Source of the DNA: Deltaproteobacteria bacterium RIFCSPHIGHO2_02_FULL_40_28
GTDB taxonomy: Bacteria; UBA10199; 2-12-FULL-40-28
Direction: 5' to 3'
Length of the DNA: 64,000 bases
Assembly: GCA_001798135.1 (NCBI GenBank)
Contig: MGRJ01000006.1
Location: forward strand, 1 to 64,000
Of the stretch, positions 10,851-30,527 are shown piece after piece; the first letter of the stretch is position 1; every line of letters starts with the position of its first letter. The position numbers and the translations under genes are program-made. Under the pieces are notes generated by a model, which worked only from the letters and a program-made list of their open reading frames with translations, ran no database searches and was not told the origin of the DNA.

Positions 10851-10980
10851 TGTCATTCCCGTCCGTCTGAGGCGGATCAGGACAGAATCCGTCATCCCGG
10901 CCGAAGCAAGTATTTCGAGCGGAGAGCCGGGATCCATCCCATGAATTAATTCTGGATCCCGCATCAAGTGCGGGATGACA
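10851..10980. repeat. GTCATCCC-type composite repeat B2
   Basis: Begins TGTCATTCCCGTC and ends GTGCGGGATGACA, with internal GTCATCCCGGCC...GAGCCGGGATCC and GGATCCCGCATC parts. It looks like two adjacent copies of the repeat. It lies in the 453-bp gap between the HAD gene and the thiolase operon. The rest of that gap is AT-rich and holds only the thiolase promoter region. Confidence 0.7.
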
Positions 10981-11159
10981 GAATGGGTGCTCTAAGGTTT
11001 TTTAGAAGGAGTTTGAAAAGCACTTGTTGCCATAAATCCTCACTTGGTTATCTTATCGTACATTCCTCTCCTTCGTTGCTACATTTTTTGCAATTTTTCA
11101 ATTTTTTGCAATTAATAATTACTAAATACTGCTGTGCTGATCATAAGCCCATCAACTAC

Positions 11160-14867: not shown

Positions 14868-15569
14868 ATGCATTTATCACTGTTTACTCCAGATGGAGCT
14901 TTGTTTTTTTTACGTTGGATCCATGTCTTCGCAGGCATTATCTGGATTGGAATGTTGTATTACTTCAATTTTGTTCAAGGTGAATTTTTCAAAGAAATTG
15001 ATGCAGGTGTTAAAGGAATCTGTACACAAAAATTGGTTCCAAGGGCCTTATTTTGGTTTCGCTGGGGAGCCATGATTACTTTTATATCGGGCCTTCTCAT
15101 CATTACAGGCACCATGCATACAGGAGTTCCTCTTAAATCAGCTTGGGGCGTCTTAATTTTAATTGGCAGCGGAATTGGAACCCTCATGTGGTTTAATGTT
15201 TGGTTTGTTATTTGGCCGGCACAAAAAGTAATTATTGCCTCGGCAGTGCAGGTAGCCTCTGGTGGGCAAGCTCTCCCAGGAGTAGCAGATAAGGCTTCTA
15301 GGGCTTGGGTTGCCTCAAGAAGCAATGTGATGTTTTCACTCCCCTTGCTTTTTTTTATGGGAGCTGCACGACATCTCATTTTATCGCGTAACTTTGATAC
15401 GGTTTCTTACTGGTCGGTTGTTGGTTCTATTGGTGGGATTTTTTTACTTTTGGAACTCAATGCCCTGAAAGGAAAACTGGGTCCCTTGCAAACAGTAAAA
15501 GGTGTGATTCATTGTGGGGTAGTTCTTACTTTGGCAATTTATCTTTTGGTTGAAGCCACAACCCTATAA
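14868..15569 (+). CDS. PuuD-like (urate oxidase N-terminal family) membrane protein
   Basis: A 233-residue integral membrane protein with about six to seven helices. The opening RWIHVFAGIIWIGMLYYFNFVQG and the later NVWFVIWPAQKVI are typical of the membrane domain of PuuD, annotated as urate hydroxylase, where the membrane part is followed by a cytochrome c domain in the same chain. Here the cytochrome c is a separate downstream ORF. A clear AAGGAGG precedes the start. It trails the beta-oxidation operon by 53 bp, so cotranscription is likely. No other purine gene is present, so a role in urate use is not supported; a haem-linked membrane redox role is a guess. Confidence 0.75.
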   Translation: MHLSLFTPDGALFFLRWIHVFAGIIWIGMLYYFNFVQGEFFKEIDAGVKGICTQKLVPRALFWFRWGAMITFISGLLIITGTMHTGVPLKSAWGVLILIGSGIGTLMWFNVWFVIWPAQKVIIASAVQVASGGQALPGVADKASRAWVASRSNVMFSLPLLFFMGAARHLILSRNFDTVSYWSVVGSIGGIFLLLELNALKGKLGPLQTVKGVIHCGVVLTLAIYLLVEATTL

Positions 15570-15577
15570 ACCTTGAA

Positions 15578-16051
15578 ATGGGATTTAGAAGAAAGGAAAT
15601 AAATCTTTCACAAAAGACGTGGTCTTTAAGGCATCGAGCCTTAAAGCCACTCGCTCTCGCCAATTTGTCAGTTTTTTTCGAATGGTCAAATTGGCTGCGA
15701 GATGCTTTTGGTTCAAGATTTATTTCCTTTCTTCTAAATCCCAGTATTATCCTTTCTTTTTTTTTCTTCATCTCATGTTCTTCTGAACCAGTTTCCACAG
15801 TAAATCCTCTAGCTAATCGCGGGAAACAAATTTATATGGCTAATTGCATTAGCTGTCATTCTCCCGATCCGAGGCAAGATGGCCCTTTGGGACCTGCTAT
15901 TCATGGCTCTTCAAAAGAACTTCTTGAATATCGCCTTTTAAAAAGAAGTTATCCCCCTTCCTATTCTCCAAAAAGACCTTCTACCTTAATGCCTCGTTTT
16001 GAACATCTAGCAGGCGATATTGAAGCCTTAACTTCCTATTTGAATGAATAA
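15578..16051 (+). CDS. Cytochrome c-like lipoprotein with repeat-encoded N-terminus
   Basis: A 157-residue ORF whose functional part is a small class I cytochrome c: CISCH haem motif (Cys90, Cys93, His94) and a likely axial Met in LMPRF (Met138). Before it lies a hydrophobic stretch IILSFFFFISC resembling a lipoprotein signal (Cys67). Residues 1-55 are encoded by a 163-bp inverted-repeat element, and no ATG, GTG or TTG in frame lies between that element and the signal peptide. The repeat therefore supplies the start codon, or the gene has lost its start. Its partner is probably the PuuD-like membrane protein just upstream. Confidence 0.65.
   Translation: MGFRRKEINLSQKTWSLRHRALKPLALANLSVFFEWSNWLRDAFGSRFISFLLNPSIILSFFFFISCSSEPVSTVNPLANRGKQIYMANCISCHSPDPRQDGPLGPAIHGSSKELLEYRLLKRSYPPSYSPKRPSTLMPRFEHLAGDIEALTSYLNE
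15580..15742. repeat. Three-stem inverted-repeat element D
   Basis: Outer arms at 15580-15606 and 15716-15742 are perfect 27-bp inverse complements (GGGATTTAGAAGAAAGG...). Inside are two further stems: GTGGTCTTTAAGGC/GCCTTAAAGCCAC with a 5-base loop and one bulge, and TCTCGCCAATTTG/CAAATTGGCTGCGAGA. Together they would fold as a three-way junction. It lies between the PuuD-like gene and the cytochrome c coding region. Confidence 0.85.
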
Positions 16052-16061
16052 TCAATTTAAG

Positions 16062-16161
16062 AGGGACTGGGAGGGGTATTTCTTTCGTCGCTGCGGAACT
16101 CCTCGCCCTGAAGGCTCGTCAGACAGTCCTCGCTTCTCAAGAAATACCCCTCCCAGTCCCT
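16062..16161 (-). repeat. Composite inverted-repeat element C3
   Basis: Arms AGGGACTGGGAGGGGTATTT and AAATACCCCTCCCAGTCCCT are perfectly complementary around the core CTGCGGAACTCCTCGCCC..AGGCTCGTCAGACAGTCCTCG. It sits 10 bp after the cytochrome c stop and could terminate its transcript. Confidence 0.85.
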
Positions 16162-16171
16162 TGAATGTTTA

Positions 16172-16188
16172 TTTCTCAAAATGAAATA
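16172..16188 (+). repeat. 17-bp direct repeat, left copy
   Basis: TTTCTCAAAATGAAATA, repeated exactly at 16592-16608. The pair flanks the orphan signal-peptide ORF and its terminator. The roughly 230 bases between this copy and that ORF hold only a short TTCTCA/TGAGAA dyad near 16198. Confidence 0.6.
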
Positions 16189-29591: not shown

Positions 29592-29730
29592 TTATACCAA
29601 GAAATAAATTTTGTAAGTTACCTATTTATATGGATTTCTAGTATTGAATCAAAATAAAAAATGATGCAAAGTGAGGCAGATGATTAAAAAAGTGGCAAAA
29701 AACTCTGCAATGGCAAAAACCATCTACTCT

Positions 29731-29797
29731 GTCATTCCCATGAAGATGGGAATCCATCTTTGGATTTAAGATGGATCCCCGCCTACGCGGGGATGAC
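29731..29797. repeat. GTCATCCC-type inverted repeat B3
   Basis: GTCATTCCCATGAAGATGG ... CCTACGCGGGGATGAC, with the ATCCATCTT/AAGATGGAT inner pair. It has the same type and order of elements as at 7814-7962. Between glnB and this repeat (29538-29730) I see only AT-rich sequence. Confidence 0.75.
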
Positions 29798-29805
29798 AAA
29801 ACTAC

Positions 29806-29889: not shown

Positions 29890-30420
29890 ATGGCTATTAT
29901 TCTCATCGATGGTTACAATTTAATTCGGCAATCTGCCCAACTCAAAACTTTTGAGGCTCAAAGCTTGGAAAAAGGCCGCATGGCTCTCCTACGCAAGCTT
30001 TCTGCTTTTCAAAAAACAAGTTCTCATCGCATTTTGGTTTTTTTTGATGCAGCCAAAACAGATAATTTGTCCACCGAAGAAATAAAAATAGGGAATATTG
30101 GTGTAGTTTTTTCAGAACAAAATCAAAAAGCAGATGAATTAATGATAAAAAAAACCAGAGAATTAGGAAGTGGTTGCTTGGTGGTAAGTTCTGATCGTGA
30201 AATTTTAGCTGCTGCCAGAAAAGAAGGTGCTGCTTTTTTATCTTCGCCTGAATTTTTAAATCAAATGGAAATGAAATTAGTTTTTGAAAGTTCTCTCAAA
30301 GCAGATGATGCAGAAATTGAAAAACCACTCCACAAACGTTGGATCACCATGAAAAAAGGCCCCGCCAAACGCTTACCTAAAGCCAAACGGAGAGCCATGA
30401 ATCAGTTGAAAAAATCATAG
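29890..30420 (+). CDS. NYN-domain (YacP-like) nuclease-fold protein
   Basis: A 176-residue protein with the PIN/NYN RNase fold. It starts MAIILIDGYNLI with the first acidic residue, has VFFDAAKT, a conserved DELMIKKTRELG segment and VVSSDREI. YacP of Bacillus (Rae1) is a ribosome-linked mRNA endonuclease; that role is inferred from family only. The C-terminus is very basic (KRLPKAKRRAMNQLKKS). The ATG at 29890 is chosen; an in-frame ATG at 29854 lies in repeat A5 and encodes no conserved residues. Its stop abuts repeat C4. Confidence 0.85.
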   Translation: MAIILIDGYNLIRQSAQLKTFEAQSLEKGRMALLRKLSAFQKTSSHRILVFFDAAKTDNLSTEEIKIGNIGVVFSEQNQKADELMIKKTRELGSGCLVVSSDREILAAARKEGAAFLSSPEFLNQMEMKLVFESSLKADDAEIEKPLHKRWITMKKGPAKRLPKAKRRAMNQLKKS

Positions 30421-30516
30421 GGACAGGGGGGAGTGTTTCTTGAGGAGCGAGGACTGTCTGACGAGCCTTCGGGCGAGGAGTTCCGCAGGGACGAAAGAAA
30501 TACTCCCCCCTGGCAC
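30420..30516 (+). repeat. Composite inverted-repeat element C4
   Basis: Arms GGGACAGGGGGGAGTGTTTCTT and AAGAAATACTCCCCCCTGGC pair around GCGAGGACTGTCTGACGAGCCTTCGGGCGAGGAGTTCCGCAG (positions 30447-30488). It starts at the last base of the NYN stop codon and is followed by eight T, so it may act as that gene's terminator. Confidence 0.85.
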
Positions 30517-30527
30517 TTTTTTTATTT

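Follow-up and report, generated by a model that had tools for sequence, protein, structure and literature searches.

The cytochrome c locus and element D

In the window, i.e. the whole 64-kb stretch of DNA that was analysed, an open reading frame for a c-type cytochrome with a CISCH haem motif is located on the plus strand at 15578..16051 (PF00034 at residues 80-156, E 8.4e-8). It follows a Urate_ox_N-like membrane protein gene on the same strand (14868..15569; PF06181, E 8.6e-17), which has orthologues in relatives. The first 55 codons of the cytochrome frame run through a foldback element at 15579-15743, here named element D, in which perfect arms surround two inner hairpins. The ORF listing agrees with the initial annotation that the frame begins at the left edge of the element and is open throughout, and likewise no usable start was seen between the right arm and the hydrophobic stretch, as in-frame ATG, GTG and TTG codons are absent there. 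A single in-frame TTG was read within the core of the element.

The left arm (15579..15607) and the right arm (15715..15743), both given on the plus strand, constitute a 29-nt perfect inverted repeat. The inverted-repeat search yielded arms of 37 nt at 92% identity, of which the printed arms showed the perfect run of 29 bp; the arm length of 27 bp given before was thus too short, whereas the two inner hairpins were recovered in the folds (plus strand, 15619..15650 and, with a T-rich loop, 15654..15701, boundaries approximate). It had also been proposed to check whether the arm sequence is unique to the locus, and a search of the source genome found the arms of D nowhere else. The conserved 100-nt core (15611..15710, plus strand) consists of the closing stem CAAAAG/CTTTTG and the two hairpins in a three-way junction, and was matched by a covariance model with 110.3 bits. 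Folding of D gave z values versus shuffles of −12.1 (DNA) and −12.7 (RNA), and as good a fold was obtained in 0 of 200 shuffles. In the whole 64 kb, element D and a second foldback near 16050 are the only places where a perfect 20-mer has its reverse complement close by, and 20 mononucleotide shuffles of the 64 kb contained no inverted perfect arms, even at 16 bp. A phage or viral origin of D was rejected after empty searches, with zero matches of the element among 50,697 phage records and of two core patterns in viral_contigs.

Further repeats were noticed in the window. A second foldback family is present at 16045-16178 and 30409-30527, one copy beginning right at the cytochrome stop; it has 41 matches in the genome including self-arm hits. 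Its core (GCGGAACTCCTCGCC...GCTCGTCAGACAGTCCTCG) is conserved, the two arms of a copy vary in concert, and copy L312 has perfect arms of wholly different sequence. Inverted repeats of the TGTCATTCCC...GGGATGACA type lie at 29730-29798 and 10879-10991.

The Urate_ox_N-like gene and the cytochrome are paired in several relatives, and many named loci of the upstream gene carry the same pair. Comparison with orthologous cytochrome loci, as the initial annotation had suggested, showed that the cytochromes adjoining this gene in genomes G003, G004 and G011 lack the element and have a short signal peptide at their very start. The covariance model detected the element at 2 of the 42 loci of the upstream gene, namely in the window and in G002; the G002 copy is a different one, which follows the same upstream gene and precedes a different downstream gene. 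Together with the locus-unique arms, these results uphold the view that D is an insertion which has become the 5′ end of the reading frame. At the site orthologous to D, GTAGGGGC...GCCCCTAC hairpin repeats were observed between the two genes in G004 (L061) and G003 (L065).

If both arms were inserted, the probable inserted stretch comprises 162 nt or 54 codons (15581..15742, plus strand); its exact ends are deduced from the in-frame cytochrome ORF left after excision and from empty sites of other copies in a sister species, which lack both arms. Three alternative excisions of D were considered, i.e. removal of both arms (162 nt; MSIILSFFFFISC), retention of the right arm (135 nt removed; MRFISFLLNPSIILSFFFFISC) and retention of the left arm (135 nt removed; MGFRRKEINLSIILSFFFFISC), and each leaves in frame what we take to be a lipoprotein-like signal. 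The two-arm excision product is the shortest and resembles the sequence in G003 (MRFFILSFCLFLLSC), although its putative signal peptide has no positive charge; the left-arm product has the most usual positive start, and the right-arm product has an MRF start like that in G003. Since all three excisions restore an in-frame signal, they do not discriminate between the arms as the native one.

Conserved core and copy-specific arms

In its own genome (G000; 2.16 Mb, 31 contigs), element D was found at six further places, mostly as core matches. A covariance model built from 13 sequences and applied to genomes at E 1e-4 detected the 100-nt core 11 times in this genome, D among them, and gave 155 matches across the class, where 10 of the 46 genomes were positive; the phylum-level search comprised the same 46 genomes. 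BLAST against 14 genomes outside the class gave no match to the element. Many copies are paired in convergent orientation at distances of about 90-200 bp (L034/L218, L217, L222, L234, L235 and L242, and further L198, L213, L212, L225 and L051).

An alignment of 94 copies supports a three-way junction with strong covariation: 94.6% of cells are in standard pairs as compared to 70.1% in shuffles, the alignment having been fitted to the covariance model so that pairing is favoured by construction. Both sides are altered in 29 of the 31 pairs, sliding of the partners abolishes the signal, and all controls are far lower. G-U accounts for 49 of about 2,740 paired core cells, with two of the pairs holding 30 of these. 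This near-absence suggests that core pairing matters in DNA rather than in RNA.

Around each copy in the source genome lies a different, almost perfect inverted repeat with arms of about 23-34 bp. The outer arm positions comprise 231 Watson-Crick pairs out of 234, two mismatches, one gap and no G-T pair. Between these copies, the outer arms match at 0.50 (0.49 when shuffled), the cores at 0.82; the right arms measure 24-34 nt and are rich in pyrimidines (C+T 173, A+G 82). A survey of 124 copies, which did not include all 155 matches and contained some extras from within fetched stretches, revealed arm pairing above the 99th percentile of the null (left and right flanks of different genomes) in 109 copies; among the 15 below this threshold, some end at contig or stretch boundaries. 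Close copies in G016, G020, G025 and G035 have partly common arms. In G042, the core of L052 is 98% identical to that of L209, yet its arms are unrelated, perfect and 25 nt long.

Empty sites and other in-frame copies

Nine places in genome G009 match the flanks of copies in G020, the two being sister species of one genus. For the G020 copies L171, L175 and L179 clear empty sites lacking the core and both arms were identified in G009; this subfamily has arms partly common between copies and hence provides no test of copies with wholly unique arms. A target-site duplication was not evident at these three sites, where the flanks are only 71-81% identical. As read from the sites, at L171 and L175 the upstream gene ends on a stop codon provided by the inserted end. 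The G009 site of L174 agrees with an empty site by length; for L174, L182 and L183 both flanks were matched but not base-clean, and for L176, L189 and L173 one flank alone was matched. Conversely, the element is absent from G020 at the positions of the G009 copies L190, L193, L195 and L199, without a clean empty site, and other repeat-like sequence occupies the L195 and L199 sites there. This comparison of genome sequences shows that copies were inserted in the sister species since these parted. For the copies of the source genome no empty site was found among the relatives returned, which share at most its order and none its family. The initial annotation had regarded the left arm of D as an inverted copy of the flank and the right arm as the original strand; this was not established, as neither arm is present at the clear empty sites.

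Other copies are located within protein genes. In a prepilin-like gene of G009 (L195), the ATG and GFSLLEV are 66 codons apart through the element. Orthologues are present in all 46 genomes, of which 12 leaders were read, and those in G016 and G035 read MKKGFSLLEV; L195 was therefore rejected as proof of a native right arm, MKK standing directly before GFSLLEV. At the same leader site, other repeat-like sequence, made up of GGTCCATGG-like units, is in frame in the pilin leaders of G020, G025 and G030 (L321, L324 and L325, respectively). In G009 L199, MKR is followed by the element and then by LFTLFLLFACSS (LFTLFLLFAC) and a SurA-like domain, which corresponds to a lipoprotein leader. G020 L181 lies in the linker of MutL at residues ~94-141, between PF01119 (2-79) and PF08676 (156-233). 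Less certain in-frame copies are L190 (BamA/POTRA), L057 (lipoprotein) and L222 (GspK-like). Because 168 out of 720 reading frames across copies are open, one in-frame case alone is weak; it is the repeated occurrence at leaders that carries weight.

Origin of the element and its arms

Of the systems compared, the element family appears nearest in behaviour to selfish repeats of the Rickettsia palindromic element type. Those are described as palindromic repeats of ~150 bp inserted in frame into unrelated protein genes (PMC10969869). D, L195, L199 and L181 are likewise short palindromic repeats in frame in protein genes; differences are the other bacterial group, the conserved three-way-junction core and the copy-specific arms. 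Like MITEs, the family is small, non-coding, dispersed and presumably moved in trans, with terminal inverted repeats, but these are unrelated between the copies of G000 (at the shuffled level) and partly common in G020 and G016, a parent transposase was not found, and no clear target-site duplication was evident at the three empty sites with their diverged flanks. Dispersed palindromes mostly close to gene ends are also typical of REP/RAYT (Y1) systems, from which the Y-shaped core of ~100 nt differs. The definitions of MITEs and REPs do not fully fit the family. Perfect inverted repeats inside protein-coding genes are described for nematomorph mitochondria, with no conserved mobile core mentioned in the accessible text (PMC6649704). 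In the literature searched, in part and with few subscription journals covered, no description was found of foldback elements that combine a conserved core with arms specific to each copy.

Two candidate motors were rejected. Y1 transposase (PF01797) is present in 38 of the 46 genomes but has 0 matches in the carriers G035 (95% complete) and G042 (83% complete), which also sets the family apart from REP/RAYT. Reverse transcriptase (PF00078) was found in none of the carriers G000 (the source genome), G002, G003, G009, G016 and G025.

On balance, we slightly favour the interpretation that D belongs to a family of small mobile palindromes, non-coding and presumably non-autonomous, and was inserted together with its arms behind the start codon of the cytochrome gene. 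The conserved unit would be a Y-shaped fold of single-stranded DNA composed of a closing stem and two hairpins whose loops are conserved. A putative enzyme would recognise the folded DNA and insert the core together with the arms, and the arms may stay or become exact mirror images by DNA synthesis that copies one arm from the other inside the hairpin; such copying would allow the arm sequence to change fast while pairing is retained. At the cytochrome locus, a lipoprotein-type cytochrome c gene would have received the insertion immediately after its start codon. As the length of D is divisible by three and the frame is open, the gene would read through it, with 54 predicted codons added before the signal peptide.

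A tentative alternative, possible though rather unlikely, is inverted copying of the flank: the core would join a target end, the folded end would copy ~25-30 nt of flank in reverse, and the strand would switch back at microhomology, leaving one arm native and the other as its copy. Arms that are locus-unique, perfect and narrow in length range in G000, found nowhere else in the genome in the case of D, would follow from this, as would the unrelated perfect arms around the 98% identical core of L052/L209. A shared TG is present at the left junction of D, and a shared AAAAAA in L195 if its right arm is native. At L024 (G000 C29, 1625-1656) a perfect TTATCCACA, a DnaA-box-like site, crosses the outer edge of the right arm; two near matches lie within 32 bp as compared to 7 in 31 kb elsewhere, a contrast noticed after the fact. 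The three DnaA-box-like sites clustered beside this arm possibly mark an origin or a regulated promoter. Moreover, the right arm of the G002 copy contains, ahead of the next gene, a GGGAGG similar to a ribosome-binding site, and a stop codon lies inside the left arm of L028. These three cases hint that an arm may be native, but the native side would then differ by copy (L028 versus L024). The empty sites in the sister species and the L195 orthologues in G016 and G035, which lack either arm, argue against flank copying, as do the arm parts common to close copies in G016, G020, G025 and G035. That core and arms are of different origin, the folded core copying the target in reverse by snap-back and giving an inverted instead of a direct target duplication, is considered doubtful.

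It appears improbable that the copies are structured RNAs or bidirectional terminators which multiplied by duplication and are maintained by selection on the transcript. Many copies follow a stop codon within ~30 nt, several are flanked by convergent genes, and T runs open several right arms, but G-U pairs are almost absent, the arm pairing is far longer than a terminator requires, copies are in frame within leaders and MutL, and the 64-kb window holds no Rfam match at gathering threshold. Insertion of the core into pre-existing hairpins, with arms older than the insertion, would explain unique arms without copying and is very improbable: direct evidence was not found, long perfect hairpins are uncommon, with perfect 20-nt arms occurring in the window only at D and at the second-family copy near 16050, and the clear empty sites show no hairpin.

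For the mobile palindrome favoured here, arms that are unrelated between copies and letter-perfect within a copy are not explained by ordinary transposition, in which terminal repeats are inherited, nor by selection on RNA, under which wobble pairs would be common. The pattern points to palindrome arms that are renewed quickly from a DNA template. With its repeated and independent in-frame insertions near start codons, the family provides a test bed for the lengthening of signal peptides and linkers by selfish DNA.
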